35,658 bases of DNA from Alphaproteobacteria bacterium (GTDB lineage Bacteria > Pseudomonadota > Alphaproteobacteria > Elsterales > Elsteraceae): contig RDXE01000065.1 of NCBI GenBank assembly GCA_004292755.1, positions 1 through 35,658 on the forward strand. Direction: 5' to 3'. The notes under the pieces were generated by a model. The model ran no database searches and was not told the origin of the DNA. It worked only from the letters and a program-made list of their open reading frames with translations. Position 1 is the first letter of the stretch; each line of letters begins with the position of its first letter. Shown here piece after piece: positions 3-23,131 of the stretch. The position numbers were made by a program, and so were the translations under genes.

Positions 3-857
3 ATCGGCGAGCCCTATCAGGTTAACGGCACTTGGTACTACCCCGCCGAGGATTTTTCCTATGATGAGAATGGGATAGCGGCCGTTATTCCAGCAGATCG
101 TGACGGACAGACCACCGCCAATGGCGAGCGCTATGATCCGCAGATGCTGGCGGCCCAGCACCGGACACTGCCCCTGCCCAGCTTTGTGCGCGTAACCAAT
201 CTGGACAATGGCCGCTCGGTCGCTGTGCGCGTGAATGATCGCGGTCCGTTCGAGCCCGGTCGCATCCTCGCTGTCTCGCCACGCACGGCTGAACTGTTGC
301 AGCTGACACCCGAAACCCGCGTGCAGGTGCAGATTCTCCCCGATGAGAGCCGTCAACTGGCGGCCTCTATCCAGCGCGGCGCCAGCACGACGCAGATCCC
401 TGAAGGGCCTGCCCAGGCGGTGCCCCGCGGTGCGGTGACCAGTACGCCGCTGGCCCCACCGGGCGGGGCCAGTGCCGCGCGGCCAACGCCGTCGACAGGT
501 TCCGTGGCCACGGGGCCGATGCCGCCGCCGCCACCCAATCCAGCCCCACCGGCACCAACTGTGGTCCGCCAACCGATTGCCCCCCCCACCGATCCAACCG
601 GGACAGTGACCCAAGGTCGCCCACAGGCGACGCGGCTGTTTGTGCAGGCCGGAGCATTTTCGAGCCGCCCCAATGCGGAGCGGATGGTGGAGCGGCTGCG
701 CAGCTTTGGCCCGACCGTGCTGGCACCGATCAGCGTCAATGGTCGCCAGTTCTGGCGGGTGCGGGTTGGCCCCGTGAACTCGGTGCGTGAGGGGGACCGC
801 CTGCTGGAACGCATGCTGGCTGCGGGGTTTCCAGACTCGCGCCTGATCGCGGATTGA
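3..857 (+). CDS. rlpA: RlpA-type septal ring lytic transglycosylase, 5' end missing
   Basis: RlpA proteins cleave peptidoglycan glycan strands lacking stem peptides and act at the division septum. The frame is open from the left edge, so the start and the signal peptide or lipobox lie outside the window; the first visible ATG at 144 is internal. The RlpA-like double-psi beta-barrel is visible at once: the stretch [13 protein letters not shown] near base 10, then TTANGERYD, then VRVNDRGPF near base 230. A long Pro/Ala/Thr-rich linker follows at about 390-620. The C-terminus, about 630-850, is a SPOR domain ([17 protein letters not shown], then FWRVRVGPV), which binds denuded septal glycan. The dacA-like gene follows after about 80 bases on the same strand, a common cell-wall pairing in alphaproteobacteria. 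Confidence 0.93.
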
Positions 858-936
858 TCGACACTAAGGCTTGCGTTTCAGAGGAAACCAAGTTGTTGCC
901 ACAGGACTGCCACGCTTAGGCACGAGGATCATGCCC

Positions 937-2178
937 ATGTCAGTCTCGCGACGCACCGTGTTGGCTGGATCGGTTGCGACCGGCCTCGTTCTGCCTGTGA
1001 TGGCTGGTGCGCAGCAGCGCCCCGCGGCCCCCGCTGCGCGGCCAGCCGCGCGCGCCGCACCGCCGCCCCCGCCGCCGGAGCCGACGCAGTTGCCGAACGG
1101 GTATCCGTGGATTCAAACTGCGGCCCAGTTTGCCTATGTCGTCGATTTCGAAACCGGTCGGGTGCTGTTGGACAAGAACAGCGAACAGCGGATGTTTCCG
1201 TCCTCGATGACCAAAATGATGACGGCATTCATCGTGTTCGAGAAGCTGGCCCGCGGCGAGTTGCAGTTGACTGAGACGTTTACCGTGTCTGAGCGGGCGT
1301 GGCGTCAGGGCGGCTCCAAGATGTTTGTGGAGGTGAACACCCGCGTCAGCATCGAAAACCTGCTGCGCGGGATCATCGTCCATTCTGGCAATGATGCGTG
1401 CATTGTGCTGGCCGAAGGCTTGGCGGGGTCAGAAGAGGCCTTCGCCAGTCTGATGAATGCCAAAGCAGCCGAAATTGGCATGACCGGCACGCAGTACCGC
1501 AACTCCATGGGGTGGCCTGATCCGAACCATTGGACCACGGCGCGCGATCTTGCCGTGCTGGCGGATCAGACCATCCGGCGCTTCCCGCAATTCTATCCAA
1601 TGTATGCCGAGCGGGAGTTCCGTTGGGGCAACATGGCGCCGCAGCCGAATCGCAATCCGCTGCTGGCGATGGCCGGGCAGGGGGCGGATGGGTTGAAGAC
1701 CGGCCACACCGACGCGTCTGGCTTTGGCCTGACTGGGTCGGCCGTGCGCGATGGCCGCCGGGTGATCCTGGTGATCAATGGCTTGACCTCGATGCGTCAA
1801 CGCGGGGAAGAGGCGGGCCGTCTGATGGATTTCGCCTACTCGCAGTTCGAGAACTTGGTTCTTTTCCGCCCTGGCGAGACGATCACCGAGGCAGCCGTCT
1901 GGCAGGGCGAGCAGCGCACGCTGCCGCTGGTTGCCGCCCGGCCTTTGATCGCGACCATCCCGCGTCGGGTTCGGCGGGATATTGCTGTGCGCGCCGTGTT
2001 CGATGAGCCGGTGGTCGCGCCGATCCAGCAGGGCCAGACCATCGGCAAACTGGTGGTTAGCGCCCCCTCGGTGGAGACGGTGGAACTGCCCTTGATCGCG
2101 GGGGCCAGCGTGGATCGGCTTGGGCCAATTGGCCGGGTTGGAGCGGCCGTCTCGCATTTCGTGTTTGGCAGCCGCTGA
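937..2178 (+). CDS. dacA: D-alanyl-D-alanine carboxypeptidase (PBP5/DacA type) with Tat-like signal
   Basis: This penicillin-binding protein removes the terminal D-Ala from peptidoglycan stem peptides in the periplasm. With the ATG at 937 it has 413 residues and the three serine-peptidase S11 motifs: SxxK at residues 90-93 (SMTK), SGN at 150-152 and KTG at 254-256. A PBP5-type C-terminal domain follows. The start at 937 was chosen because GAGG at 924-927 sits 9 bases upstream; the ATG at 931 and a TTG at 871 are alternatives. The N-terminus SRRTVLAG followed by a mildly hydrophobic stretch ending in AGAQQ resembles a twin-arginine signal, and residues 28-50 are an Ala/Pro-rich linker. The gene ends six bases before the chosen tmk start, so the two are probably co-transcribed. 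The choice of dacA rather than another dac symbol is by family. Confidence 0.92.
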   Translation: MSVSRRTVLAGSVATGLVLPVMAGAQQRPAAPAARPAARAAPPPPPPEPTQLPNGYPWIQTAAQFAYVVDFETGRVLLDKNSEQRMFPSSMTKMMTAFIVFEKLARGELQLTETFTVSERAWRQGGSKMFVEVNTRVSIENLLRGIIVHSGNDACIVLAEGLAGSEEAFASLMNAKAAEIGMTGTQYRNSMGWPDPNHWTTARDLAVLADQTIRRFPQFYPMYAEREFRWGNMAPQPNRNPLLAMAGQGADGLKTGHTDASGFGLTGSAVRDGRRVILVINGLTSMRQRGEEAGRLMDFAYSQFENLVLFRPGETITEAAVWQGEQRTLPLVAARPLIATIPRRVRRDIAVRAVFDEPVVAPIQQGQTIGKLVVSAPSVETVELPLIAGASVDRLGPIGRVGAAVSHFVFGSR

Positions 2179-2184
2179 GTGCGG

Positions 2185-2814
2185 ATGCCTCAGCGCTTTA
2201 TCACGTTCGAGGGTGGCGAGGGGGTTGGCAAGTCCACCCAGCTACGCCTGTTGGCGGCCACCTTGCGCACCCGCGGTCACACGGTCGTGGAAACGCGCGA
2301 GCCCGGCGGATGCCCGGCCGCTGAGCAGGTGCGCACGCTCCTGGTGACTGGCAGTGCGGATCGCTGGGATGCCGTCGCGGAGGCGTTTCTGGTGTCCGCT
2401 GCCCGTCGCATGCATGTGGAGCAGGTGATCCGCCCCGCGCTAGAGCGTGGCGCGTGGGTGCTGTGTGACCGGTTCACGGATTCCACCATCGTGTACCAGG
2501 GTCTTGCAGGAGGGGTTGGAACAGCCGACCTGCAAACCCTCAATCGCCTTGCCACAAATGGCCTAGCGCCTGACCTCACCTTGGTGTTCACCCTGTCGGT
2601 GGACCGCGCGTTGGAACGCGCAACCCGCCGGGCGGCGGCGAGCGGCAGCGCCGAAGATCGCTTTGAAGGCAAAGGCAGGGCATTCCATGACGCGCTGGCC
2701 CGCGGCTTTGACGCGGTGATCCAGGCGGAGCCCAATCGCTGTCGGCGGATCGACGCCGATGGCAGCGTTGAGACTGTGGCGCACCGCGTCCTGGCGGCGG
2801 TGGATGCGGCGTGA
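2185..2814 (+). CDS. tmk: Thymidylate kinase
   Basis: Tmk phosphorylates dTMP to dTDP with ATP in the cytoplasm, an essential step of dTTP synthesis. The 209-residue protein begins RFITFEGGEGVGKST, so the P-loop lies at about residues 10-18. The nucleotide-monophosphate site REPGG, the DRF motif (CDRFTDSTIVYQG, around residue 95) and an Ala/Arg-rich lid region with EDRFE follow in the normal order and length. The usual REPGGTP reads REPGGCP here. A GTG at 2179, directly after the dacA stop, is an alternative start two codons upstream; ATG 2185 was preferred because Tmk proteins usually begin just before RFITFEG. No strong Shine-Dalgarno is visible for either. The stop codon lies one base before the holB start, and tmk-holB adjacency is very common in bacteria. 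Confidence 0.95.
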   Translation: MPQRFITFEGGEGVGKSTQLRLLAATLRTRGHTVVETREPGGCPAAEQVRTLLVTGSADRWDAVAEAFLVSAARRMHVEQVIRPALERGAWVLCDRFTDSTIVYQGLAGGVGTADLQTLNRLATNGLAPDLTLVFTLSVDRALERATRRAAASGSAEDRFEGKGRAFHDALARGFDAVIQAEPNRCRRIDADGSVETVAHRVLAAVDAA

Positions 2815-2815
2815 C

Positions 2816-3886
2816 ATGGCATCCGCGCCCGACCAACCCCATCACCCGCGCCTCACGCTCTCGCTGATTGGTCAAGATGCAGCCGAGCAGCGCTTCCTGG
2901 AGGCTTGGACCTCCGGTCGGTTGCACCACGCTTGGATGCTGGCAGGCCCGCGGGGTATTGGCAAAGCGACGCTGGCCTATCGCATCGCGCGCTTCGTCCT
3001 GGCAAGCAGTGCGGCAGGGGAGGTGGATATGTTTGGCGCCCCTGTGGCGCCAACCTCCCTCGCCCTGCCCGCCAGTCATCCTGTGGTGGCACGCATTGCC
3101 TCTGGCGGGCACAAGGACCTGATTGCGATCGAGCGTGCCTGGGACGCGAAGCGCGGCAAGGCCCGCAGCGAGATCGCAGTCGATCAGATCCGCGCGATTG
3201 CCGACCTGCTGCACCTCACCCCTGGTGAGGGAGGGTGGCGGGTGGTGATCGTTGACCCCGCCGACGATCTGAACACCAACGCCGCCAACGCGCTGTTGAA
3301 GATGTTGGAGGAGCCACCGCGCCAAACCCTGCTCATGCTGGTCACCCACGCGCCCGGAGCCCTGCTGCCAACCATCCGATCCCGGTGCCGCCGCCTGGAT
3401 GTCGCTGCGCTGAGCGAGGGCGAGGTGCGACGCTTGCTGGGCAACCTGCGACCGGACTTGGCAGAGCCGGAAGCCGATGCCCTGGCTGTGCTGGGTGACG
3501 GCAGCATTGGTCGGGCGATGGACCTTGCTGAGCAGGGCGGCGTGGAGTTGTACCGCAGCGTGGTCACCACTCTTGCCAGCGGCCCCGATCCCGAAGCCGT
3601 GATGGCCCTGGGCGACCGGTGCAGTCGTGCCGATGGCAGTTTGGACGTGGTGATCGACTTGATGCGCTGGTGGTTGGCGCGCCTTGCCCGCGCGGCTGCC
3701 CGCGGCAGTCTGCCAGCGCCAGCGATTGAGGGGGAGGAGCGGGCCGCGCGCGCCGTGCTGGCGCGTCTGCCGCCCGACCGGCTGGCTGATGCCTGGACGG
3801 CCATCGGTACTATCTTCGCCCGCGCCGATGGGTTGAACCTGGACCGCCGCCAGACGGTTCTCGACGCCTTCGCCGCATTGCGGTAG
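2816..3886 (+). CDS. holB: DNA polymerase III subunit delta'
   Basis: Delta' is the rigid stator of the clamp loader that opens the beta sliding clamp for loading onto DNA. The 356-residue protein has the AAA+ core with a P-loop-like GPRGIGKA at residues 44-51, a Walker B-like region (WRVVIVDPADDLNTNAANALLK), the LEEPP motif and the SRC sensor (TIRSRCRRLDV). The zinc-binding cysteines found in the E. coli protein between the P-loop and the Walker B region are absent: no Cys occurs there. The start at 2816 is one base after the tmk stop; an in-frame ATG at 2804 overlapping tmk is possible. The C-terminal helical collar region is less conserved, as expected. A 77-base gap separates it from metG. 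Confidence 0.93.
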   Translation: MASAPDQPHHPRLTLSLIGQDAAEQRFLEAWTSGRLHHAWMLAGPRGIGKATLAYRIARFVLASSAAGEVDMFGAPVAPTSLALPASHPVVARIASGGHKDLIAIERAWDAKRGKARSEIAVDQIRAIADLLHLTPGEGGWRVVIVDPADDLNTNAANALLKMLEEPPRQTLLMLVTHAPGALLPTIRSRCRRLDVAALSEGEVRRLLGNLRPDLAEPEADALAVLGDGSIGRAMDLAEQGGVELYRSVVTTLASGPDPEAVMALGDRCSRADGSLDVVIDLMRWWLARLARAAARGSLPAPAIEGEERAARAVLARLPPDRLADAWTAIGTIFARADGLNLDRRQTVLDAFAALR

Positions 3887-3963
3887 GGCTGTGTCGCGGT
3901 GTTCGCTGTCTCTCCCTCTGACGGGGCAGGCGAGGGCCGTCCGGGCAAAGGACTGAGGGCGCA

Positions 3964-5508
3964 ATGAGCGAGCGTGCGGCGATCTATCTCACAACTCCAA
4001 TCTATTATGTGAACGATGTGCCCCACATCGGGCACGCCTACACGACGCTCGCAGTCGATATGCTGGCGCGGTTCCACCGCCTGGATGGTCGACCAGTCAA
4101 GTTCCTGACTGGCACCGATGAGCACGGCCAGAAGGTGGAAAAGGCAGCCGCCCAGCGCGGGCTCGCCCCCCTCGCCTTTTGTGATGAGGTGTCGCAGGCG
4201 TTTCGGGATCTGTGCCCGGCGATGAATTATTCCAACGATGATTTCATTCGCACCACTGAGGCGCGCCATGTCCACGCCTGTCAGGCGCTGTGGCAGCGAT
4301 TGGTGGAGAAGGATCAGATCTACCTCGGTGCCTACAAGGGTTGGTACTCGGTCCGCGATGAAACCTATTTCGCCGAGGATGAGTTGGTTGACGGCAAGGC
4401 GCCCACCGGCGCACCGGTCGAGTGGGTGGAGGAGCCGTCCTATTTCTTCCGCCTGTCCCAGTGGGGTGACCGCCTGCTGCAATGGTATGAGGACAATCCA
4501 GAGTGCGTGGCCCCGCGCTCCCGCCGCAACGAGGTGATCAGCTTTGTGAAGCGGGGGCTGCAGGACCTGTCGGTGTCGCGCACCACCTTCCGCTGGGGCA
4601 TCCCGGTGCCGGGCGACCCGGCGCATGTGATGTATGTCTGGGTCGATGCTCTCACCAACTATCTGTCGGCTGTGGGCTACCCAGACGAAAGCACCGATGC
4701 CTATCAGCTGTTCTGGCCCGCCAGCCTGCACATGGTGGGCAAGGACATCTTGCGGTTTCACGCCATCATTTGGCCCGCCATGCTGATGGCAGCCGACCTG
4801 CCGCCGCCACAGCGGGTGTTTGCTCATGGCTGGTGGACCAATGAGGGCAAGAAAATCTCCAAGTCGCTGGGCAACACCATCGACCCGCTGAAGCTGATCG
4901 ATACCTACGGCTTGGACCCCGTGCGGTATTTTCTGCTGCGCGAAGTTCCGTTCGGTGATGATGGGGATTTCTCCCATGCCCAAATGGTTCGACGCATCAA
5001 TGCCGATCTCGCGAATGATCTCGGCAATTTGGCCCAGCGTTCCTTGAGCATGATCGCCAAGAACTGTGGCGGCGTGGTTCCAACGCCTGGGCCCTTCACT
5101 GCCACCGATCAGGCCTTGTTGGAGAGCGCTTATGGTGTGCTTGGCACGATGCGCGAGCACTTAGCCCAGCAATCCTTCCACCGTGCGTTGGAAGCCGTGT
5201 GGGACGTGATCTCGGCCGCCAATCGATACGTCGATGAGCAAGCGCCTTGGAGCTTGCGCAAGACCGATCCCCCTCGCATGGCGACGGTGCTGTACGTGTT
5301 GGCCGAGGTGGTGCGCTGCGCGGCCGTGCTGGTGCAGCCGGTGATGCCCGACAGTGCCACCAAGTTGCTGCGCCAGTTGGGTCTGGACGCGCCACAGCAG
5401 TTTGACTGTTTGTCGGCTGCGGCCGCTCTGGTTCCGGCTACACCGCTGCCAGCACCGCAGGGTGTGTTTCCGCGCTGGGTGGAACCTGCCACCCCGGCTA
5501 CCTCCTGA
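3964..5508 (+). CDS. metG: Methionine--tRNA ligase
   Basis: MetG attaches methionine to initiator and elongator tRNA-Met. The 514-residue protein carries the class I signatures HIGH (residues 21-24) and KISKS (297-301, a variant of KMSKS). The connective peptide lacks zinc-knuckle cysteine pairs: the region GWYSVRDETYF has none, so this is the zinc-independent form common in alphaproteobacteria. The typical stretch GKAPTGAPVEWVEEPSYFF and the substrate-site WVDALTNYLSA are present. An alpha-helical anticodon-binding domain fills the C-terminal third, and there is no extra C-terminal tRNA-binding (Trbp111-like) domain, in keeping with the length. A GAGGG about eight bases before the ATG supports the start. 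tatD follows after 14 bases. Confidence 0.96.
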   Translation: MSERAAIYLTTPIYYVNDVPHIGHAYTTLAVDMLARFHRLDGRPVKFLTGTDEHGQKVEKAAAQRGLAPLAFCDEVSQAFRDLCPAMNYSNDDFIRTTEARHVHACQALWQRLVEKDQIYLGAYKGWYSVRDETYFAEDELVDGKAPTGAPVEWVEEPSYFFRLSQWGDRLLQWYEDNPECVAPRSRRNEVISFVKRGLQDLSVSRTTFRWGIPVPGDPAHVMYVWVDALTNYLSAVGYPDESTDAYQLFWPASLHMVGKDILRFHAIIWPAMLMAADLPPPQRVFAHGWWTNEGKKISKSLGNTIDPLKLIDTYGLDPVRYFLLREVPFGDDGDFSHAQMVRRINADLANDLGNLAQRSLSMIAKNCGGVVPTPGPFTATDQALLESAYGVLGTMREHLAQQSFHRALEAVWDVISAANRYVDEQAPWSLRKTDPPRMATVLYVLAEVVRCAAVLVQPVMPDSATKLLRQLGLDAPQQFDCLSAAAALVPATPLPAPQGVFPRWVEPATPATS

Positions 5509-5522
5509 TTGCGGGTCTTGCT

Positions 5523-6323
5523 ATGTTGATCGACAGCCACTGCCACCTGGATTTTCCGGATTTCGCCGAGGACCTGGACGGCGTGATCGAGCGGGCAGGG
5601 CAGGCCGGTGTTGGCCTGATGATCACCATCTCCACCAGCATGGCCGGGTTCCCGCGGGTGCGCGCGATCGCCGAGCGGTTCCCGCAGGTCTATTGCACGG
5701 TTGGTGTGCACCCCCACGAGGCGAGCGAGGATTGGGGGCTGGACGCTCAGCGCCTGGTCGAGGCTGCCAGCCACCCCAAAGTGATTGGCATCGGGGAGAC
5801 CGGGCTGGATTTCTACTACGATCAAAGCCCGCGCGACCGGCAGGCGGACAGTTTTCGTGCGCACATTCAGGCCGCGCGCGAAAGCGGCCTGCCGATCATC
5901 ATTCACACCCGCGATGCCGAGCCCGAGACGATCGCCATGCTGGAGGCAGAGTATCGCGCCGGGCCGTTCCCTGGCCTGATCCATTGCTTCACGGGTAGCC
6001 AAGCCTTGGCCGACGCGGCGTTGGGCCTTGGCTTGTCCATCTCAGCCTCTGGTATCGTGACGTTCAAATCGGCCGAGGCGCTGCGTCAGGTGATTGCTAC
6101 CGTGCCCCTGGACCGGTTGCTGGTGGAGACTGACTCGCCCTACCTCGCCCCGATTCCCAAGCGCGGCAAGCGCAACGAGCCCGCGTTTGTGAGCCATACC
6201 GCCGCGGTGGTTGCCGGGCTGAAGGGTGTGTCGGTCGCGGACCTGGCTGCGGCCACCACAGCGAATGTCCATCGGCTGTTCAGCAAGCTGCCAGCCGGGC
6301 AGGGCAAGGCGATCGCCGCATGA
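5523..6323 (+). CDS. TatD family metal-dependent hydrolase (YcfH type)
   Basis: Members of this family are TIM-barrel metalloenzymes with DNase or related hydrolase activity; the physiological substrate of the YcfH branch is not settled. The 266-residue protein begins with the metal-binding DSHCHLD (His6 and His8), followed by VGVHPHE, GETGLDFYYD, IHTRDAE, HCFTGS and ETDSPYLAP, which together give the usual metal ligands. The next gene starts inside its stop codon (ATGA overlap at 6320-6323), so the two are almost certainly translated from one message. The order metG-tatD-metallo-beta-lactamase fold is conserved in many alphaproteobacteria. Confidence 0.93.
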   Translation: MLIDSHCHLDFPDFAEDLDGVIERAGQAGVGLMITISTSMAGFPRVRAIAERFPQVYCTVGVHPHEASEDWGLDAQRLVEAASHPKVIGIGETGLDFYYDQSPRDRQADSFRAHIQAARESGLPIIIHTRDAEPETIAMLEAEYRAGPFPGLIHCFTGSQALADAALGLGLSISASGIVTFKSAEALRQVIATVPLDRLLVETDSPYLAPIPKRGKRNEPAFVSHTAAVVAGLKGVSVADLAAATTANVHRLFSKLPAGQGKAIAA

Positions 6324-7090
6324 AAATCACCGTGCTGGGGTGCGGCGGGTCCCCCGGCGTGCCATCGGTGAGCCACGGCTGGGGTGCCTGCGACCCCACC
6401 AACCCGCGCAACCGGCGGCGCCGGGTCTCGCTGCTGGTGGAGGAGGCGGGCAGGGCGATCCTGATCGACACCTCCCCTGACCTACGCGAGCAATTGCTGG
6501 ATACCGGCATCCGCCGCCTGGACGGCGTGATCTGGACTCATGCCCATGCCGACCATCTGCACGGCATTGATGAACTGCGCGGCATCAATCGCGCGATGCA
6601 CGCGCCGCTGCCGGTGTGGGCCGACGCGGAAAGCCTGGAGATCATTCACCAGCGCTTCGGCTATGTGTTTGAGCCACTGGATGCGTCCCTCGGCAATTAC
6701 TACAAGCCGGTGCTGATCCCGCATTGCATTGATGGTCCGTTTGAGGTGGCTGGCGTGCCGGTGACGCCATTCCGTCAAGACCATGGGTTTTCCACCACAC
6801 TCGGCCTGCGCTTCGGGCAGTTCGCATACTCGACCGATGTGGTGCACCTGGACGCGGCAGCGTTTGCCGCGCTTGCAGGCATTGAGGTGTGGGTGGTGGA
6901 CTGCTTCCGCCATGCACCGGGCCACCTCACCCACAGCTGGCTGGCGCAAACTCTGGACTGGATTGCGCAGGTTGGCCCAAAGCACGCCGTGCTAACCCAC
7001 ATGGGTGAGGACATGGACTATGGAACGCTCGCCAGCGCATTACCGGCGGGCATAGAGCCAGCCTATGACGGCATGGTGCTGACCCTGTAG
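6320..7090 (+). CDS. PhnP-like metallo-beta-lactamase-fold phosphodiesterase
   Basis: This is a 256-residue metallo-beta-lactamase-fold hydrolase of the PhnP-like branch. The glycine-rich opening ITVLGCGGSPGVPS and the metal motif THAHADH (His74, His76, Asp78, His79) are visible, with later metal ligands likely in FRQDHGFSTT, AYSTDV and VLTHMGED. PhnP itself hydrolyses 5-phosphoribosyl 1,2-cyclic phosphate, but no phn genes are nearby, so the substrate here is not established. It overlaps the tatD-like gene by four bases and is the last + strand gene in the window. No clear intrinsic terminator follows its stop; the dif-like site begins 35 bases downstream. Confidence 0.88.
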   Translation: MKITVLGCGGSPGVPSVSHGWGACDPTNPRNRRRRVSLLVEEAGRAILIDTSPDLREQLLDTGIRRLDGVIWTHAHADHLHGIDELRGINRAMHAPLPVWADAESLEIIHQRFGYVFEPLDASLGNYYKPVLIPHCIDGPFEVAGVPVTPFRQDHGFSTTLGLRFGQFAYSTDVVHLDAAAFAALAGIEVWVVDCFRHAPGHLTHSWLAQTLDWIAQVGPKHAVLTHMGEDMDYGTLASALPAGIEPAYDGMVLTL

Positions 7091-7125
7091 CCAGCGCCAG
7101 CCGTGTGCTATCCTGATTGGCGGTG

Positions 7126-7153
7126 TTCTGACATAATCATCATTATGCGACAA
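7126..7153 (-). other. dif-like XerC/XerD recombination site (probable chromosome dimer resolution site)
   Basis: Read on the - strand, the 28 bases form an 11-base XerC-type arm TTGTCGCATAA (7153-7143), a 6-base spacer TGATGA (7142-7137) and an 11-base XerD-type arm TTATGTCAGAA (7136-7126). Against the E. coli dif arms, recalled from memory, the XerC arm shares CGCATAA and the XerD arm shares TTATGT plus two further bases, and arm and spacer lengths are exact. The inner CATAA and TTATG form the expected palindrome. All visible genes to its left run rightwards and all to its right run leftwards, as expected at a replication terminus. Recognition is by pattern; no alignment was run. Confidence 0.8.
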
Positions 7154-7274
7154 CACCATAATCACGGCGACGCCAGCCACGCACCGACAACGACGTGGCG
7201 GCCTTGGTATTGGGCAGCCTTGGTGTTGGTTGGAGTGCTGGTTGGACGGCGGGGCCTGAGCCCTTCCCGTCCCG

Positions 7275-9134
7275 TCACACGCTCACCGCCTCGAAAATCG
7301 CCGCCTTGAACGCCTCAGCAATCACTTTGGGGTCACCAATCGGCGACTGCCGGACCAGCACAGGGAGCCGCCGCCGCAACTCCGCGCGGACCTCCGGCGA
7401 CCGCAACAAATGAATGGCCAGGTCGATCTGGGCGTTGAAGGATGGTGCGATCAGGCTGGACTCGCCAATGGCATCCAGGATCGCAACTGTATGTCGCCCG
7501 GCGATCGTTTCGCCGCGACTGGTGACAACAGGCACGCCCGCCGACAATGCTTGTAACGACGTGAGATTGCCGGTGAAGGGTTGGGTATCAACGACCAAGG
7601 TGTATTTCGCCAGTCTATCGCGGAAGGTCGTGGTACTAACGGACATCGACATCGTTACGCGGTCAGGTTGAATGCCAGCCTTATGCATCGCTCTCTTCAC
7701 CCTGCCCTCAATAAATGGGGAATACTTACTGCAATCAATTGCGAAACGCACCTCTGGCATGGCGTCCAGTATTTCTCTAATCATCTGGAACCATTTATCC
7801 GTGAGTTTGAATTCAGAAGCAATGGAGCCAATGACTAAACGATCTGAGGGTTCCTCGAGTGGATCCAGACAATGACCGTGTAGGGATTCAAAAATTTTCA
7901 ATGGAAACGGAGTTCTGATGATCCTTTCCGAAAACTCCTCAGGGTTAGCATCTCCGAACACTGACTCAGCGAAGATATAGCTGTCTATCCCAATCTCGCC
8001 ACTGGTAAAGAACATGTTCGAGAATGACGCAATGCGCTTCGCTGGTCGAAAGTACAGCACGGAATCATCACCTAAAACTCCAGGATTATCGAAAGTGATC
8101 AGCAGATCGAGCTGGTCGTTCTTGATCGCCTGGGCGCGTTCCAGCGACGTGAGTCCACGCAATCCGCGCAGAGACAGGAGCCAATCAGTTCCTGCTGTGT
8201 CATGATACTTGTCTGGCAAACGCTGCGAGTATCCGAAAAACACTATGTCGTCTTTACTGAGATGGCTTAAACACTGAACATTGACTATTGAGTTGAAATA
8301 CTGCCAGAGAATTCCAACCCGAAGAGGGCGCGCCGGATTGGGTTCGGCATGAACTGGAACTTGCGGTTCTGTTGGCCTCGCCCCACAGAAATCACGTACT
8401 TGGCGACCATACTCCCGGCCTAAAACTGCCAGATCCTGCTGGGACAAATGTCCACAGAACGCAGCAAATAGGACCCAGAGCTGACTAAGCTCAACTCCCT
8501 GACTTCTGTCACGGACATGATGTTGGATGGCATTCCAAAATCTATCCCCGATCTCTAAGTCTGAAAAATTCCAGCATTGCGATAATACAAATAAAGTAAG
8601 GTCATGCCGTGTCGTTTGAGTCTGGATCTCACCTACTAAAGTTGCCGCCTCCTCGATCTTTCCAGAAAACACGAGGCACAAAGTTGACAGAAAATCACCC
8701 GTTTCTCCGTAAGTTTCATCCGATCGCCAAGGTTTCAGCACCTCTAGCGCGGTTTCGTATCGTCCGTAGGCAATGTGTGCGGTTGAGATCACGATCGCCG
8801 TGCCCGCATCGTCAGGCTCGATATCGATTTCTGGGTAGCCCTGCCCATAGGGGAGGATTGTCGATTCCTCAGCCTCCAGCAGCGCGAGCCAGGCTCGCGC
8901 GCGGTTGGAGGATGAGGACTGCTTCAAAAGGTCCCTCCAAGGTGACAAAGAGGAGGGCACTCCGACGCCCGTTGGTGACCAGTTGTCAAACTTCCAGACA
9001 GGAATCACCTGGTCCCAGTCAGCGTCATTGAGCGCCCTGCCCCGGGCGACGTACCGTTGAAGGAGCGAAATGGCACCAGCTTGATATCCGGCATGAATAA
9101 GAGAAAGAGCCGAATCAATCACTGGGGAAGGCAT
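7275..9134 (-). CDS. GT41-like (O-GlcNAc transferase-related) glycosyltransferase
   Basis: The 619-residue protein looks like a divergent member of the SPINDLY/O-GlcNAc transferase group. The N-terminal half is helical and TPR-like, for example AHIAYGRYETALEVLKPW. The catalytic region begins at about residue 270 with LRVGILWQYF, has DLLITFDNPG and then PAKRIASFSN in the place of the family's RPAPIQ segment, and ends with DTQPFTGNLTSLQALSAGVP followed by VVTSRGETIAGR (516-547), which closely resembles the UDP-sugar-binding end of these enzymes. The family's catalytic histidine near the start of the catalytic region is not obvious. GGAG eight bases before the ATG supports the start. The middle is clearly poorer in G+C than its neighbours (about 45% by hand count at 7741-7920). 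Acceptor and donor are unknown; no flagellin or other likely target is nearby. Confidence 0.68.
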   Translation of the reverse strand: MPSPVIDSALSLIHAGYQAGAISLLQRYVARGRALNDADWDQVIPVWKFDNWSPTGVGVPSSLSPWRDLLKQSSSSNRARAWLALLEAEESTILPYGQGYPEIDIEPDDAGTAIVISTAHIAYGRYETALEVLKPWRSDETYGETGDFLSTLCLVFSGKIEEAATLVGEIQTQTTRHDLTLFVLSQCWNFSDLEIGDRFWNAIQHHVRDRSQGVELSQLWVLFAAFCGHLSQQDLAVLGREYGRQVRDFCGARPTEPQVPVHAEPNPARPLRVGILWQYFNSIVNVQCLSHLSKDDIVFFGYSQRLPDKYHDTAGTDWLLSLRGLRGLTSLERAQAIKNDQLDLLITFDNPGVLGDDSVLYFRPAKRIASFSNMFFTSGEIGIDSYIFAESVFGDANPEEFSERIIRTPFPLKIFESLHGHCLDPLEEPSDRLVIGSIASEFKLTDKWFQMIREILDAMPEVRFAIDCSKYSPFIEGRVKRAMHKAGIQPDRVTMSMSVSTTTFRDRLAKYTLVVDTQPFTGNLTSLQALSAGVPVVTSRGETIAGRHTVAILDAIGESSLIAPSFNAQIDLAIHLLRSPEVRAELRRRLPVLVRQSPIGDPKVIAEAFKAAIFEAVSV

Positions 9135-9178
9135 TTCAACTGCTCCATTCTGGGCTGCAGGCCTTTCCGGCTGGCGAC

Positions 9179-9240
9179 GACTGAGTGTTGAGGGTTAAGC
9201 GGTGAAGCGCCACTGCGCTGTGCCGATCCACCACTCAGTC
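9179..9240. repeat. Nested inverted repeat between the DUF1467 gene and the glycosyltransferase gene
   Basis: GACTGAGTG at 9179-9187 is the perfect reverse complement of CACTCAGTC at 9232-9240. Between them AGCGC (9206-9210) and GCGCT (9215-9219) form a second hairpin with a CACT loop. The structure lies just after the last gene of the long nuo-containing unit on the - strand, so it may help end transcription, but no run of T follows it. Its role is uncertain. Confidence 0.45.
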
Positions 9241-9257
9241 ACACACGGCCCCACCAC

Positions 9258-9509
9258 CTAGCCGAGCGGCGCCACCCAGCGACGGAACGACACCATGTCC
9301 GACGCCACAACCGCATAGACGATCAGCCACAGCACGGCTGTGATGATGGTCGTCCACATCGCTTTCCAGGCCAGCCGAGGATGCTCCGGGGCGGAGGTGG
9401 CATGACCCACCACCGGCTCCGCCACTGGCCTCGCCTTCCAGGGCAGGACAGCGAACAGCACTGTCCACCACAGGATCACGAATACAACGATCCCAGAGAC
9501 CACGCTCAT
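9258..9509 (-). CDS. DUF1467 family small membrane protein
   Basis: This is an 83-residue protein of unknown function with two membrane-spanning segments, at about residues 3-22 (VVSGIVVFVILWWTVLFAVL) and 50-68 (WTTIITAVLWLIVYAVVAS), and a short polar loop between. The family is found in alphaproteobacteria directly after mce, which is the arrangement here: the start at 9509 overlaps the mce stop in an ATGA. A longer reading from an upstream frame position is possible but would lie inside mce. It ends the tightly packed gene series that begins with nuoA; in many relatives proS follows, but here the next gene is a glycosyltransferase. Confidence 0.85.
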   Translation of the reverse strand: MSVVSGIVVFVILWWTVLFAVLPWKARPVAEPVVGHATSAPEHPRLAWKAMWTTIITAVLWLIVYAVVASDMVSFRRWVAPLG

Positions 9510-9910
9510 GCTTGCTCGAGCTCCACCAGCGTGCCGCAAAAGTCCTTCGGGTGAAGGAACAGAACGGGCTTGTCGTGCGCGCCGATCCTGGGGTCGCCCG
9601 ACCCCAACACCCGCGCCCCCTGGGCAATCAGATGGTCGCGGGCGGCCAAAATGTCATCCACCTCGTAGCAGACATGGTGCATGCCGCCAGAGGGGTTCTT
9701 GTCCAGAAAGCCGCGGATCGGTGAGTCGGCGCCCAAAGGGTGCAGCAGCTCAATCTTGGTGTTCGGCAAGGAGACAAACACCGTGGTGACACCGTGGGCG
9801 GGCAGGTCAATCGCCTCGGAGACCGTCGCGCCCAGCAGGGTGCGATACGTGGCGCTGGCTGCCGCCAAATCGGGGACGACGATTGCAACGTGGTTCAACC
9901 GACCAATCAT
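9506..9910 (-). CDS. mce: Methylmalonyl-CoA epimerase
   Basis: The enzyme interconverts (R)- and (S)-methylmalonyl-CoA, linking propionyl-CoA breakdown to succinyl-CoA. The 134-residue protein is a vicinal oxygen chelate fold with two beta-alpha-beta-beta-beta repeats: LNHVAIVVPDL at the start (metal ligand His7), GGMHHVCYEVDD (His78 or His79) and GTLVELEQ (Glu130) at the end. The length is typical. A strong GGAGG about nine bases before the ATG supports the start. It overlaps the downstream DUF1467 gene by four bases and follows the small secreted protein gene after 33 bases. No methylmalonyl-CoA mutase or propionyl-CoA carboxylase gene is in the window. Confidence 0.93.
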   Translation of the reverse strand: MIGRLNHVAIVVPDLAAASATYRTLLGATVSEAIDLPAHGVTTVFVSLPNTKIELLHPLGADSPIRGFLDKNPSGGMHHVCYEVDDILAARDHLIAQGARVLGSGDPRIGAHDKPVLFLHPKDFCGTLVELEQA

Positions 9911-9943
9911 GCTGCCCTGCCCTCCTTGCCGTCTTCGGTCCGG

Positions 9944-10339
9944 CTAGCGCCGCACCTGCCATACCTCAATGCCAACCCCCGCCCCAGGGGTGCCGGCCCA
10001 TGCGCCTTGCCAGTCACCCTGCCCGGTTGGGCGGTAGACGGCGATGAACAGAGTGGAGCCTGTCCGATCAATGATCGCGACGGACAGTTGATCTCCCACC
10101 ATCAACCCGATTCCGGCATAGGCATCGGTGCCAATCTGCCAGACCACCTCAAACCGCTGATCTTGGCGGCGCACGGCAACGGTACCCGGACCATAGGCCT
10201 GACCATTGGGCGCGGTGCCTGACACGACATAGGTGCCGCTGGGATCGCGCGTTTGCGCAACTGCCAAAGGGCAGGCCCAAAGACCAGCGATCAACACAGC
10301 CACCAGGACCGCCCGCAGGCGAGTCAACACAGCTGCCAT
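9944..10339 (-). CDS. Small secreted protein of unknown function
   Basis: The 131-residue protein is not recognised as a named family. It has a clear Sec-type signal peptide: Arg at 7 and 9, a hydrophobic core to about residue 22, and a likely cut after AVA at residue 28. The single Cys of the signal is not in a lipobox. The mature part of about 103 residues is beta-rich, with repeated Gly and aromatic positions (GTYVVSGTAPNGQAYGPGTV, FEVVWQIGTDAYAGIGL, STLFIAVYRP, GDWQGAWAGTP), suggesting a small beta-barrel or sandwich. The start lies four bases after the rnj stop and mce follows after 33 bases, so it is probably co-transcribed with both. Its place between rnj and mce suggests a conserved companion but gives no function. 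Confidence 0.75.
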   Translation of the reverse strand: MAAVLTRLRAVLVAVLIAGLWACPLAVAQTRDPSGTYVVSGTAPNGQAYGPGTVAVRRQDQRFEVVWQIGTDAYAGIGLMVGDQLSVAIIDRTGSTLFIAVYRPTGQGDWQGAWAGTPGAGVGIEVWQVRR

Positions 10340-10343
10340 TGGC

Positions 10344-12023
10344 CTAGACCCTTACCACCAGCACCTCCAGGTGCGGCTTCAAGCCAAGCACGGACTTCAC
10401 GGCCCGGCGGAACGCCACCCGACCAGCCTCAGCCACGGCGGCATCATCTTGTCGACGCGCGTCACTGGGAAGCGCCTCCAACGCCGCACGCACGGCGTGG
10501 GACAGCACCTCGGCCTCGGCCGTGCTCTCGGTGTCAACCAGACCTGGAAGACTGACCGCAGGGTCAGCGACCACCCTGCCCTTGCGATCCAGCACCAAGG
10601 TGCAGACGGCAACGCCTTGATTGGCAACGCGTTGGCGCGCCTTCATCTGCGGGCCATCCATCGGGATCAAGCGGTTGCCGTCCACCGCCAGCCGACCGCT
10701 GGTGACCCGATCAATCACAACCGGATCGCCAGGTCCCAGGCGCAGAACCTGGCCGTTTTCCACCACAGGCGCGTGGGGCACCTGACAGCCGAGGGCGAAG
10801 CGCGCATGCTCCACCAAGTGGCGATGCTCCCCATGCACCGGCACGACGATCCGTGGCTTCAGATGGGCGTAGAGCCGGGCCAACTCATCGCGGGCCGGGT
10901 GCCCAGAAACGTGGACGAAGTGATCCCGCTCCGTCAGCACTTCAATGCCCTGGCGGGCCAGTTGGTCGTGCAGCCGCCCAATTGCCTTTTCATTACCCGG
11001 GATGATCCGGGAGGAGAAAATGACGCTATCGCCCTCTTCCAGCACGATGTGCGGGTGATTGTCGAAGGCGATGCGGGCCAGTGCCGCGCGCGGCTCGCCC
11101 TGGCTGCCCGTGCAGATGAGGCAGACCTTATCCCTGGGGAGATAGCCCGCATCCTCCTCACTCAAGAAGGGCGGGCAGTTGGTCAGATAACCATTGGCGC
11201 GCGCCGCATCCACCATGTTGCGCAGCGACCGACCGACCAGCGCTGTTGACCGGTCATGGGCGGCCGCCACCGTCGCGATGGTTTCCAGCCGCGCGATGTT
11301 GGAGGCAAAGCAGGCCACGGCAACCCGGTTCTCCAGCCCCGCCATCAAGTCGGCAAGGCTGGCCCGCACGTCAGCCTCTGAGCCAGACTCTCCCTCCTTA
11401 AACACGTTGGTGCTGTCGCCGATCACCGCCAACACGCCATCGCGCCCGATTTCGGCTAGGCGCTGCTCATCGGCCGTGGGGCCGATCAGCGGCGTCGGAT
11501 CCAGCTTCCAGTCTCCGGTGTGCACCACAGTGCCGACTGGCGTTCGGATGGCAACGGCGTTGGGCTCTGGAATCGAATGGGTCAGCGTGACCAACTCAAT
11601 CTCGAACGGCCCAATGCTCGCCCGGCTGGACATCGGCAGGATGGTAAGCGGCACCTCCTGCTCCAACCCCACTTCGCGCAGCTTGCGTTGCAGAACCGTG
11701 GCCGTGAATGGGGTCGCATAGACCCGGCAGCGCAGGCGCGACCACAGATGCGGCACCGCCCCCAGATGATCCTCATGGGCGTGGGTCAGCACCAGCCCGA
11801 CAAGATCCCGGCGCCGTTCGACAATAAATCCGGGGTCAGGCATCACCACATCGATACCCGGCACGCGGTCATCGCCGAAGGTAACACCCAGATCGACCAT
11901 CAACCATTTGCCAGCATAGCCGTAAAGGTTGAGGTTCATGCCAATCTCCCCTGCCCCGCCAAGGGGTAGGAAGATCAGTTCGCGCTGATTCCACAGCGCG
12001 GTCTCAAGTTGATATCCGTCCAC
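10344..12023 (-). CDS. rnj: Ribonuclease J
   Basis: RNase J combines 5'-3' exonuclease and endonuclease activity in RNA processing. The 559-residue protein has the metallo-beta-lactamase core with FLPLGGAGEIGMN at about 18-30 and the zinc motif HAHEDH at 81-86, then the beta-CASP insert (GDSTNVFKEG, CFASNIARLETI, CTGSQGEPRAALARIA, FVHVSGHPARDELARL, VPVHGEHRHL) and a C-terminal domain ending in EVLVVRV. The start is a GTG at 12023, four bases after the coaX stop; no ATG near the conserved N-terminus fits better. The gene is followed after four bases by the small secreted protein gene. Confidence 0.95.
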   Translation of the reverse strand: MDGYQLETALWNQRELIFLPLGGAGEIGMNLNLYGYAGKWLMVDLGVTFGDDRVPGIDVVMPDPGFIVERRRDLVGLVLTHAHEDHLGAVPHLWSRLRCRVYATPFTATVLQRKLREVGLEQEVPLTILPMSSRASIGPFEIELVTLTHSIPEPNAVAIRTPVGTVVHTGDWKLDPTPLIGPTADEQRLAEIGRDGVLAVIGDSTNVFKEGESGSEADVRASLADLMAGLENRVAVACFASNIARLETIATVAAAHDRSTALVGRSLRNMVDAARANGYLTNCPPFLSEEDAGYLPRDKVCLICTGSQGEPRAALARIAFDNHPHIVLEEGDSVIFSSRIIPGNEKAIGRLHDQLARQGIEVLTERDHFVHVSGHPARDELARLYAHLKPRIVVPVHGEHRHLVEHARFALGCQVPHAPVVENGQVLRLGPGDPVVIDRVTSGRLAVDGNRLIPMDGPQMKARQRVANQGVAVCTLVLDRKGRVVADPAVSLPGLVDTESTAEAEVLSHAVRAALEALPSDARRQDDAAVAEAGRVAFRRAVKSVLGLKPHLEVLVVRV

Positions 12024-12027
12024 GGGA

Positions 12028-12807
12028 TCATGTCACGTTGCGTTTGTGGATGAGAAGCAGTCCGTGCAACGTCAGATCAGCGTCGCTGTGATCGATCACA
12101 TCAGTTGCCTGGGCAAACATAGGGGCAAGTCCGCCCGTGGCAACCACTTTCAGACCAGGGTCACTCTCCTGCCGCTCCTGACGGATGCGGGCCACCACAC
12201 CCTCGATCATGGCGACATAGCCCCAATACACGCCAGATTGCATCGCTTCGACCGTATTGGTTGCGACCACCCGCGTGGTGCGGCGGATTGCCACGCGAGG
12301 AAGCTTGGCTGCAGCCATGTACAGCGCCTGGAGCGACAGGTTGATCCCCGGCACGATCACGCCGCCGCGAAAGTTCCCCTCGGCGTCGACCAGATCGAAG
12401 GTTGTCGCGGTCCCAAAATCGACGACCACGAGCGGACCGCCATAGCGGTTGTGAGCGGCGACGGCATTGACCAGACGGTCCGCCCCGGCCTCCTCCGGTC
12501 GGTCAATAATCGCGCGCATGCCCAGGTCACAATTGGGCTCACCAACCACCAATGGGCGGGTCTTGAAGTATTTGGTGCAGAGTGTGATTAGATTAAACAC
12601 CGCCTCTGGCACCACTGAGGACAGAATGGCGGCAGTAATGTCCTGGCGCTGAAGCTCTTCCAGCTGCATCAATTGCGTAAGCCAGACAGCATATTCGTCA
12701 GCTGTGCGTTTGATTTCTGTGGCAGCGCGCCAGGACCCGCGCAGGCGTTCCCCGTCATAGATGGCAAACACGGTGTTGGTGTTGCCGGCATCAATCGCGA
12801 GCAGCAT
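12028..12807 (-). CDS. coaX: Type III pantothenate kinase
   Basis: CoaX carries out the first step of coenzyme A synthesis, phosphorylation of pantothenate, and is not inhibited by CoA in characterised cases. The 259-residue protein shows the ASKHA-fold motifs: the phosphate loop DAGNTNT at 6-12, GADR at 108-111 with the following LVNAVAA, and DFGTATTFD at 130-138. The start at 12807 was chosen because GGAGG lies just upstream and because [11 protein letters not shown] is the usual beginning; an in-frame ATG at 12831 is less likely. The start overlaps the end of birA by 17 bases, and rnj follows after four bases. Confidence 0.95.
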
Positions 12808-13525
12808 GAACCCCTCCTCCCACACCAACATCGCCAGCGGTGACGCGCACGGGTCCAGTGGCGGTGGTCACCAGCAATGCGCCGTCGCGATCAAGACCTA
12901 GGATCACACCGGAGACCGACCCGGCCTGGACCGTGCGGCCCATCCCCCAGATTCGGCGGGTCCAGTGAGACAGCACGGGCTGCAAGCCCTCCCGCAGCCA
13001 GACCTGGACCCAGGCATCAATGGCGGTGACCAAGTCCGCCAGAAGTTGAGTGCGATCAACGGCATGATCCGCCAGATCAGCCACCTCCCGACCCGGCACG
13101 GCAACGGGGACGAGGTTGAGCCCGATGCCGATCACCACCCACTCAACGGTGGCGCGCGCAGGATCCAAGGCTGATTCGACAAGAATACCGCCCAGCTTGC
13201 CGTCGCCGCGCATCAAGTCGTTTGGCCACTTCAACAGCACTGGTACGGGGCATTGCCGGGCAATCGCCTCACAGGCGGCGACTCCGGCCAGCAACGACAG
13301 TTCCGCCGCGCGCTGAGGTGGCACCCCGGGCCGCAGCAACAGTGAGGCATAGAGATTGCCGACAGGGCTGGTCCAGCCACGGCCAAGGCGCCCGCGCCCG
13401 GCCGTCTGCTGCATTGCGGTGATCACCAATCCGGCAGGCGAGCCGTTGAGCGCGGCCGCCTTGGCCTCATCATTGGTGCTGCCGACGCTGTCCCGTGCGT
13501 CCAGCCGCCACCCGGCAGGAATCAT
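12791..13525 (-). CDS. birA: Biotin--[acetyl-CoA-carboxylase] ligase, without DNA-binding domain
   Basis: The enzyme makes biotinyl-AMP and transfers biotin to carboxylase carrier domains. The 244-residue protein has STNDEA near residue 16, the biotinyl-AMP loop GRGRLGRGW at 43-51, KWPNDLM from 99, GKLGGILVE, and the C-terminal SH3-like domain ([10 protein letters not shown]). It starts directly with the catalytic domain and lacks the helix-turn-helix repressor domain of E. coli BirA, so it should be an enzyme only. Its start overlaps the nuoN stop by four bases (13522-13525) and its end overlaps the coaX start, so translation is probably coupled on both sides. Confidence 0.94.
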
Positions 13526-15003
13526 CCGCCGAACAGCGTCGCCGCAGCCAGCCGGGCAGGCCCAATCAACGCCGACGGCATGGCAATGAACAGCACGGTG
13601 ACCGCCGTGGACAGGCTGATCACCGCTACCACAGCAGTCGATTGACCTGCTTCGAACTGCACCGTGGGTTCATCGAAGTACATGAGCTTGATGATGCGCA
13701 GGTAATAGTAGGCCCCAACCACACTGGCCAACACCCCCAGCACCGCCAGCGTGGTCAAGCCAGCCTCAATGGCTGCCAGGAACACGTACAGCTTGCCAAA
13801 GAACCCGGCCAGCGGCGGGATGCCCGCCATCGAGAACATCGCCACCGCCAGGGCTGCCGCCAAGCCCGGCCGGGTGCGACTCAAACCAGCCAAATCCGAA
13901 ATCCGGTCAACAGGTTGCCCGTCGATCCTCAGGCACAGCAGGATGCCGAAGGTGGCGGCCGTCATCGGCAGATACAGCGCCATATAGAGGGCGATGCCGG
14001 TGACGCCAGCTTGCGAGCCCGCTGCAAGGCCGACCAGCGCATAGCCCATATGGCCGATCGAACTGTAGGCAAGCAGACGCTTCATGCTGGACTGGCTGAT
14101 CGCCGCGAAGGCACCCAGCGCCATCGAGGCAATCGACACCAGCACGATCACCTGCTGCCATTGGGCCACCAGATGCTCAAACGGACCCGCCAGCACCCGC
14201 ACAAACAAGGCAATCGCGGCAATCTTGGGGGCTGCAGCGAACAGCGCCGTCACCGGGGTGGGGGCACCTTCGTAGACGTCCGGCGTCCACATATGGAACG
14301 GCACGGCCGAGACCTTGAACGCCAACCCAGCGATCACGAAGACCAGCCCAACCACCACGCCAACCGAGGGGAGCGTGTGGGCACCATCGCCGTGGTTCTC
14401 CCCGCCATGGTGCAGGGCAGCCGCAATGGCATCGAACCCAGTGGCGCCGGTAAACCCGTAGACCAAGGAGGCGCCATACAGCAGCATGCCCGAGGACAGG
14501 GCGCCAAGGACGAAGTACTTCAACCCCGCCTCAGTTGAGCGGACGTCGTCACGGTGGAATGAGGCGCAGACATAAAGCGCCAGGCTTTGCAGCTCCAGGC
14601 CAACATACAGCGCCATCAAGCTGTTGGCTGAAATCATCAGCATCATGCCGAGCGTGGCGAGCACCACGAGCACCGGGTACTCAAAGCGGGCAATCTTGGC
14701 GCGCTCGAAGTAATCGATGCTCAGCACCAGTGCCGCGGCGGCGCCCAACAGCGCCAGCACCTTCATGAAAACAGTGAAGCCGTCGGTGCGGAATTGGCCG
14801 TTCATGGCCACCCGTACCTCGCCACCCATGCCCATCACCATCACGGCTGTGATTGCCAGCACCAGCACGGCACCCCAGGCGATGGTCCGCGCGGTATCCC
14901 GCCCGCGCCCGAACACCCCCAGCATCAGCAAGCCCATAGCTGAGACTGCTAGGAACAGTTCCGGCAGGATGATGCCGACATCGGCCATTTGGATCGGAGT
15001 CAT
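13522..15003 (-). CDS. nuoN: NADH-quinone oxidoreductase subunit N
   Basis: NuoN is one of the three antiporter-like membrane subunits of complex I that carry out proton translocation. The 493-residue protein is strongly hydrophobic with about 14 predicted membrane helices. Typical segments are LQSLALYVCASFHRD, YFVLGALSSGMLLYGASL, FKVSAVPFHMWTPDVYEGAP with PTPVTALFAAAPKIAA, and RLLAYSSIGHMGYALVG. It is the last nuo gene; it follows nuoM after 10 bases and its stop overlaps the birA start by four. A loop of uncommon content (HHGGENHGDGAH, near residue 200) lies between two helices. Confidence 0.97.
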   Translation of the reverse strand: MTPIQMADVGIILPELFLAVSAMGLLMLGVFGRGRDTARTIAWGAVLVLAITAVMVMGMGGEVRVAMNGQFRTDGFTVFMKVLALLGAAAALVLSIDYFERAKIARFEYPVLVVLATLGMMLMISANSLMALYVGLELQSLALYVCASFHRDDVRSTEAGLKYFVLGALSSGMLLYGASLVYGFTGATGFDAIAAALHHGGENHGDGAHTLPSVGVVVGLVFVIAGLAFKVSAVPFHMWTPDVYEGAPTPVTALFAAAPKIAAIALFVRVLAGPFEHLVAQWQQVIVLVSIASMALGAFAAISQSSMKRLLAYSSIGHMGYALVGLAAGSQAGVTGIALYMALYLPMTAATFGILLCLRIDGQPVDRISDLAGLSRTRPGLAAALAVAMFSMAGIPPLAGFFGKLYVFLAAIEAGLTTLAVLGVLASVVGAYYYLRIIKLMYFDEPTVQFEAGQSTAVVAVISLSTAVTVLFIAMPSALIGPARLAAATLFGG

Positions 15004-15013
15004 TGGCCGGACC

Positions 15014-16537
15014 TCAATTGCTTGCCAGCGAGGCGGGGATCACCGTCGCCGGTGCCGCCTGGGCGATCTGGTACCGTTGGATCAAGTGATCGATCGATGC
15101 CTGCATGGGCACCAGGAACGAGTTTGGATAGATGCCCATCCAGAGCGTGACCGCCACCAGCGGGGCGAACACGGCAACCTCCCGAGGGTTCATATCCAGC
15201 ATCGCCCGCACATCATCGCGCGTGATCTTGCCAAAGCAGATGCGGCGGTAGAGGTAGAGGCTATACGCTGCCCCCAGCACCACGCCCGTTGCAATCAGCG
15301 CTGCAAGCCACGTGGATGCCTGGAAGGCGCCCATCATCACCAGGAACTCGCCCACGAAGCCGGAGGTTCCGGGCAGGCCGATGGTCGCCATGGTGAAGAA
15401 CAAGAACACGACGGCATAGCGGGGCATGGTGTCAGACACGCCGCCATAACGCGCAATCTCGCGGGTGTGCAAGCGGTCATACACAACCCCGACGCACAAG
15501 AACAACGCGCCGGAGACAATACCGTGGGACAGCATCTGGAACACAGCGCCGCTGACACCCTGGCTGTTCAAGGTGAACACGCCCGCCGTCACAAAGCCCA
15601 TATGGGCCACGGAGGAATAGGCGATCAGCTTCTTCATATCCTCCTGCGCCAGCGCAACCAGCGAGGTATAGATCACTGCCACCACCGACAAGGTGAACAC
15701 CAGCGGCGCAAACAGAGCAGACGCTTCCGGGAACAGCGGGATGGAGAAGCGCAGGAAGCCATAGCCACCCATCTTCAGCAACACACCGGCCAGGATCACC
15801 GACCCAGCGGTCGGCGCCTCGACGTGGGCATCGGGCAGCCACGTGTGCACTGGCCACATCGGCACCTTGACGGCGAAGGACGCGAAGAACGCCAACCATA
15901 GCCAAGTCTGCACACCGCCAGGGATCGACTTGGTCATCAGCGTCGGGATGTCCGTGGTGCCAAAGGTCGACCACAGCCAAATGATCGCCAAAAGCATCAG
16001 GACCGAGCCTGCCAGCGTGTACAAGAAGAACTTGAACGCGGCATAGACCCGGCGATAGCCACCCCAGACCCCGATGATGATGAACATCGGGATCAGCACA
16101 CCTTCGAAGAAGATATAGAAGGTGACCAGATCCAGCGCACAGAACATGCCGACCATCAGCGTTTCTAGGACCAGGAACGCCAGCATGTATTCACGCACCC
16201 GCTTGGTCACTGCCTCCCATGACGCCAGAATGCACAGTGGGGTCAGGAAGGTGGACAGCAGCACGAAAAACAGCGAGATGCCGTCAATCCCAACATGGTA
16301 GTTGATGTTGAACTCGGGCAGCCACTGGTAATACTCCACGAATTGGAATTCGTGGGTGCCATTCTCAAACCGCGTCCACAGCGGAATTGAGATCAGGAAG
16401 GTGAGGCCCGACGTCCAGATCGCAATCCAGCGGGCATTGCGGGCCACCTGCTCTTCACTGCCGCGCAGCACCAGGATCGCCAGTGCGCCGACCAATGGCA
16501 AGAAGGTGACGACGGACAGGAACGGAAAGCTGGTCAT
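15014..16537 (-). CDS. nuoM: NADH-quinone oxidoreductase subunit M
   Basis: NuoM is the second antiporter-like proton-pumping subunit of complex I. The 507-residue protein has the family's typical stretches: [19 protein letters not shown] near the N-terminus, [20 protein letters not shown] with the key membrane glutamate, [20 protein letters not shown] with [19 protein letters not shown], and [15 protein letters not shown]. About 14 membrane helices are expected. The start at 16537 lies three bases after the nuoL stop, and nuoN follows after 10 bases. Confidence 0.97.
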
Positions 16538-16540
16538 GGC

Positions 16541-18472: not shown

Positions 18473-18477
18473 GGCGC

Positions 18478-18786
18478 TCAACCCTTCATCATGTTGATGT
18501 CCTCAACCGCGATCGAGCCGCGGTTGCGGAAATAGACCACCAGGATCGCAAGACCAATCGCCGCTTCTGCAGCCGCAACGGTCAGCACAAACAAGGCAAA
18601 CACCTGACCGACCAAGTCACCGAGGAAGCTTGAGAAGGCAACGAGATTGATGTTGACCGATAGCAACATCAACTCCACCGACATCAAGATCACGATAACG
18701 TTCTTGCGGTTCAGGAATATCCCGAAAATCCCAAGGGTGAACAGGATGGCCGAGAGCGACAGGTAGTGCGAAAGACCGATGACCAT
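18478..18786 (-). CDS. nuoK: NADH-quinone oxidoreductase subunit K
   Basis: NuoK is a small three-helix membrane subunit of complex I in the proton path next to NuoJ and NuoN. The 102-residue length is standard. The two conserved membrane glutamates are present at Glu38 ([18 protein letters not shown]) and Glu74 ([15 protein letters not shown]), and the end [13 protein letters not shown] is typical of alphaproteobacteria. It begins three bases after the nuoJ coding end is passed on the upstream side (nuoJ stop at 18790), and its last codons supply the probable Shine-Dalgarno of nuoL. Confidence 0.97.
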
Positions 18787-18789
18787 CGC

Positions 18790-19404: not shown

Positions 19405-19411
19405 GATCGGC

Positions 19412-19900
19412 CTACCGGTACGGAGCGTCCTTGGCGATATTGGCGGCAATCTCAGATTCCCACCGGTCGCCATTCGCGAGCAGACGGTCCTTGTTGTAGA
19501 ACAACTCCTCGCGGGTTTCGGTTGCGAACTCGAAGTTCGGTCCCTCAACGATGGCATCCACCGGACAGGCTTCCTGACAGAAGCCGCAATAGATGCACTT
19601 GGTCATGTCGATGTCGTAGCGGGTGGTCCGCCGACTGCCGTCCTCGCGCGGTTCCGCCTCAATGGTGATCGCCTGTGCCGGGCAGATCGCTTCGCACAGT
19701 TTGCAGGCGATGCAGCGTTCCTCACCATTGGCGTAGCGCCGCAGCGCATGCTCCCCGCGAAAGCGCGGCGAGATCGGCCCTTTCTCAAACGGATAGTTGA
19801 CGGTGGCCTTGCGGCGAAACATGTAGCTGAAGGTCAGCTTCATGCCCGCGACAAGTTCCGTGAGCAAGAACCCCCGGATGCTACGATCCATCATGCCCAT
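19412..19900 (-). CDS. nuoI: NADH-quinone oxidoreductase subunit I
   Basis: NuoI carries the two [4Fe-4S] clusters (N6a and N6b) that pass electrons from NuoG to NuoB. The 162-residue protein has both ferredoxin motifs intact: Cys63, Cys66, Cys69 and Cys73 ([12 protein letters not shown]), and Cys102, Cys105, Cys108 and Cys112 ([12 protein letters not shown]). An N-terminal amphipathic stretch with YPFEKGP precedes them. GGGGA about eight bases before the ATG at 19900 supports this start; ATGs two and three codons further in are possible. It is separated from nuoH by 124 bases, the largest gap inside the nuo series. Confidence 0.97.
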
Positions 19901-23121: not shown

Positions 23122-23131
23122 GCGGGTTCCC

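Follow-up and report, generated by a model that had tools for sequence, protein, structure and literature searches.

The window analysed here, 35,658 nucleotides of DNA, is one entire contig of the draft genome of an alphaproteobacterium (4.21 Mb, 4,210,169 bases, in 95 contigs; 99.9% complete). Seven identified genes on its left, ending with an MBL-fold hydrolase gene, all run rightward and form a set that is a conserved neighbour of dif in Alphaproteobacteria. All identified genes on its right, from a GT41-like glycosyltransferase gene through to tig, run leftward, as do three tRNAs (Table 1). The reversal of gene direction that an earlier note had described at this point is thus confirmed. 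Between the two groups lies a 28-mer, which begins 36 bases past the stop of the MBL-fold gene and stands 122 bases from the end of the glycosyltransferase gene. The GC content of the latter gene is 53%, against about 64% in its neighbours, and it is probably a recent, lineage-specific insertion that separates dif from the rnj-nuo block.

Table 1. Features of the window around the putative dif site.
Feature	Position	Strand	Evidence
rlpA-like/SPOR, dacC (PBP5-type), tmk, holB, metG, tatD, MBL-fold hydrolase	144..7090	+	Pfam, tblastn synteny map
MBL-fold gene, last rightward	6320-7090	+	Pfam
Putative dif site	7126..7153	-	Sequence, genome-wide uniqueness, 29.2-bit matrix score, position and orientation as canonical dif of relatives
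Predicted XerD arm TTATGTCAGAA	7126-7136	-	Sequence
Predicted 6-bp central region TGATGA	7137-7142	-	Sequence
Predicted XerC arm TTGTCGCATAA	7143-7153	-	Sequence
Cumulative GC-skew maximum (window)	7254..7254	.	GC skew
GT41-like glycosyltransferase gene, first leftward	7275..9134	-	Pfam PF13844 E 8e-11; GC
RNase J, coaX, nuoN...nuoB, lon, clpX, tig	10344..35280	-	NCBIfam, ORF list
GGGNAGGG (KOPS-type) octamers converging on dif	1675..28460	.	Strand counts

dif is a 28-base spot at which XerC and XerD separate joined sister chromosomes when replication ends. On the plus strand the 28-mer at 7126-7153 reads TTCTGACATAATCATCATTATGCGACAA; the XerC/XerD reading offered earlier therefore belongs to the minus strand, where the reverse complement of TTCTGACATAATCATCATTATGCGACAA gives TTGTCGCATAA-TGATGA-TTATGTCAGAA. 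The plan is that of an XerCD-type dif, an 11-bp XerC arm, a 6-bp centre and an 11-bp XerD arm, with the inner core conserved. The core CGCATAANNNNNNTTATGT (CGCATAA-N6-TTATGT) was found with zero mismatches only once in the 4,210,169 bases, at this site. A dif matrix was trained on 32 dif sites from relatives, with the own genome left out. It gave 29.2 bits for the 28-mer and 20.4 bits for the runner-up in the own genome (1.5 Mb scanned), in which the XerD arm is broken, while the maxima in ten random sequences of 4.21 Mb were 5.6 to 14.8 bits. Within their scope, these searches support both the dif-like site claimed in the earlier note and the expectation that it would be the sole strong match. 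The best other sites carry one mismatch and poor outer arms, which, within the limits of a draft assembly, agrees with one dif per replicon. Four candidates (C41:56465, C25:41407, C58:3598 and C2:323485) were rejected on account of poor outer or XerD arms.

The dif sites of the 32 relatives (consensus TTGTCGCATAATGTATATTATGGAAAAT) scored 32.1 to 54.5 bits, all above the window site, because TGATGA here replaces TGTATA and the outer XerD arm TCAGAA replaces GAAAAT. The window copy is therefore real, but its central hexamer and outer XerD arm have degenerated somewhat. An identical TGATGA centre occurs in another member of the class (G060). Separately, the same-genus genome G001 carries an identical dif-like CGCATAATGCAATTTATGG on two contigs, L040 (G001:C29:2441) and G001:C74:1799; this may be a repeat, an assembly duplicate or the dif of G001 itself.

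Three polarity signals switch at the site: gene direction, GC skew and the octamer GGGNAGGG, which orients FtsK in E. coli. GC skew is positive to the left and negative to the right, and its cumulative curve over the window peaks 101 bases from the site, the left-side contrast resting on 7 kb. At the level of the window curve, the site is therefore at a local shift point from positive to negative skew. The octamer is present in 21 copies, compared with 7.25 expected from shuffling. It can be seen that these copies converge on the site, with 4 plus and 2 minus copies to the left and 0 plus and 15 minus copies to the right (Fisher p 0.0025); the last plus copy is at 6448 and the first minus copy at 7261. 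Among all rearrangements of its letters, the polarity of GGGNAGGG ranks 1 of 56. The GT41-like gene, directly beside dif, nonetheless bears GGGNAGGG octamers in the correct orientation.

Since the genome is in 95 contigs, skew and octamer polarity were taken per 20-kb piece, over about 1.5 of 4.2 Mb, instead of from a whole-genome cumulative skew. Within these contigs no second switch from plus to minus comparable to that of the window was found. A single octamer polarity was kept throughout C1 and C72 (plus) and throughout C2, C36, C11 and C35 (minus). C57, which bears dnaA, was minus across 100 kb with the skew becoming positive near the contig end, and this would fit a nearby origin. Three further contigs, C26, C41 and C58 (L241-L248, L254-L258), were without clear octamer or skew polarity and may represent a secondary replicon or DNA that was acquired recently.

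Of the 80 loci that a MetG search returned from other Alphaproteobacteria, 32 have a canonical dif, always in the orientation of the window site, downstream of the rlpA-dacC-tmk-holB-metG-tatD-MBL operon; some of the remaining loci stop short of the dif position or bear near matches. The distance from metG to dif in the 32 loci is mostly 1.6-2.7 kb, which puts dif immediately behind the MBL gene, and the loci include those of Novispirillum itersonii, Stella sp. ATCC 35155, Roseospira visakhapatnamensis, Terasakiella brassicae and Magnetospirillum fulvum. Local GC skew is noisy in many relatives, so for these the octamer polarity served better; the pooled plus and minus counts at the 32 sites were 108/17 on the left and 2/82 on the right (Fisher p 4e-38). 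In a second sample, 11 members of the class picked via dif and lon and without reference to metG, 9 had the operon no more than 10 kb from dif, and the octamer counts were 31/4 on the left and 0/31 on the right. The only same-genus genome, G001, was rejected for this comparison, having no detectable MBL gene and being too fragmented. With dif after the same operon, and orientation and octamer flip alike, the window site is the positional orthologue of the canonical dif. No description of a linkage between dif and the metG operon was found in the literature searched.

Another possibility is that the site is a true dif on a chromosome whose replication now ends elsewhere, for example because an inversion has left arms of unequal length. 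For a P. aeruginosa strain whose arms are unequal, dif has been reported as the end point of segregation but not of replication (PMC6199493), and Kono et al. have argued that termination takes place near dif, not strictly at it (PMC3025954). However, the skew is an accumulated record of replication direction and changes sign no more than about 100 bp from the site, and we consider this possibility improbable. An attachment site that resembles dif but belongs to an integrative element exploiting Xer (IMEX) would account for the imperfect sequence, as such elements bear imperfect dif copies, and for the AT-rich gene directly adjoining it. In contrast, the site is single: no second zero-mismatch dif copy was found beside the low-GC gene or anywhere else in the genome, and no repeats surround the site. 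It also stands in the ancestral dif position with its left neighbours conserved, and skew and octamers switch there, so that this explanation is largely refuted and seems very improbable. Least probable of all, to the point of being negligible, is a chance AT-rich palindrome or a bidirectional terminator, which would be expected between converging operons but leaves unexplained a matrix score far above the random maxima, a canonical dif at the equivalent place in many genera and the octamer flip.

The genome encodes an XerD-like recombinase of 295 aa (C9) and an XerC-like one of 319 aa (C36); both candidates match Xer models best, yet score below the NCBIfam equivalog cut-offs. The gene beside that for the XerC-like protein presumably encodes a member resembling the DUF484 family. 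Two proteins with an FtsK-gamma domain are present, L168 (C83) and L169 (C71). There is also a third, divergent Xer-like tyrosine recombinase (L053, C49:15411-15869), possibly from a mobile element. The XerCD/dif/FtsK system resolves chromosome dimers at division. By analogy, the two replication arms would end in the neighbourhood of dif, where the forks are presumed to meet. FtsK would load on the GGGNAGGG octamers aimed at dif on both arms and pump DNA at division until the dif sites of both sisters are brought together at the septum. XerD would then be activated by FtsK-gamma, and XerC and XerD, bound to the two dif copies, would recombine them and turn a dimer into two monomers.

Taken together, the unique match, the nearby skew maximum, the octamer flip and the orthology in dozens of relatives support the reading of the earlier note that this is a dif at the terminus. 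With very high confidence, on sequence grounds, we assign 7126-7153 as the dif of the primary chromosome. As the positional orthologue of a known dif, it is almost certainly the dimer-resolution site and terminus marker of the chromosome. A genuine chromosomal dif at the terminus is of an already-known kind and of little surprise.

It had also been proposed that the terminus is an unusual address for complex I, Lon and ClpXP, and this did not hold. Across the 33 genomes, the own included, in which lon and dif share a contig, the median distance between them was 121 kb, although requiring a shared contig biases towards short distances in fragmented assemblies; in seven single-contig chromosomes it amounted to 4.5-31% of the half chromosome. 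lon was transcribed towards dif in 32 of the 33 (binomial p 8e-9, the genomes not being independent). Proximity of clpX, the neighbour of lon in the window, to ter has been published for Rhodospirillales, Caulobacterales and Rhizobiales (Tomasch et al. 2021, PMC8116508), and in Gemmatimonadota a region centred on ter has been reported to hold core genes and complex I (NADH dehydrogenase) (PMC11237797). The address is therefore an ordinary one. What is peculiar to the window genome is that the spacer and XerD arm are somewhat degenerate and that the gap between dif and rnj-nuo-lon is unusually short, about 3 kb: lon is 22 kb from dif, the shortest of the 33 distances, and rnj 3.2 kb, compared with about 75 kb and about 54 kb in G005, a genome of the same family.

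One lead alone deserves to be kept, the long-lived anchoring of dif to the metG operon. Tentatively, and with more doubt than conviction, we suggest that in many alphaproteobacterial orders dif has stayed for a very long time beside rlpA-dacC-tmk-holB-metG-tatD-MBL, opposite a tig-clpXP-lon-nuo block whose transcription runs towards it, as a conserved terminus architecture in which proximity to the terminus may set the dosage or timing of the proteases and complex I. In practice, the site gives an unplaced draft chromosome a fixed terminus, from which the origin-terminus polarity of its contigs is easier to read. A dif beside one operon, with lon pointing at it, supplies a simple synteny guide by which dif can be located in alphaproteobacterial drafts; the pattern also allows conservation of gene order at the terminus to be tested.

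In Rhodospirillales-type relatives such as Novispirillum itersonii (L061), Stella sp. ATCC 35155 (L062) and Magnetospirillum fulvum (L119), dif likewise lies immediately or shortly downstream of metG-tatD-MBL, and its orientation and octamer flip are identical to those at the window site. In contrast to the window genome, with its rnj so close, these loci have no rnj or nuo within the 6-8 kb examined to the right of dif. Compared with the two-recombinase dif of Proteobacteria, that is, that of E. coli and those predicted in Alphaproteobacteria (PMC3025954), the window site differs in its TGATGA centre, where a TGTATA-type hexamer is usual, and in its divergent outer XerD arm. It shares with them the 11+6+11 plan and the CGCATAA/TTATG core. 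Like the dif served by XerC, XerD and FtsK in Proteobacteria, it is present in a single copy at a skew shift point, with converging GGGNAGGG octamers and with genes for XerC, XerD and FtsK-gamma encoded in the same genome.
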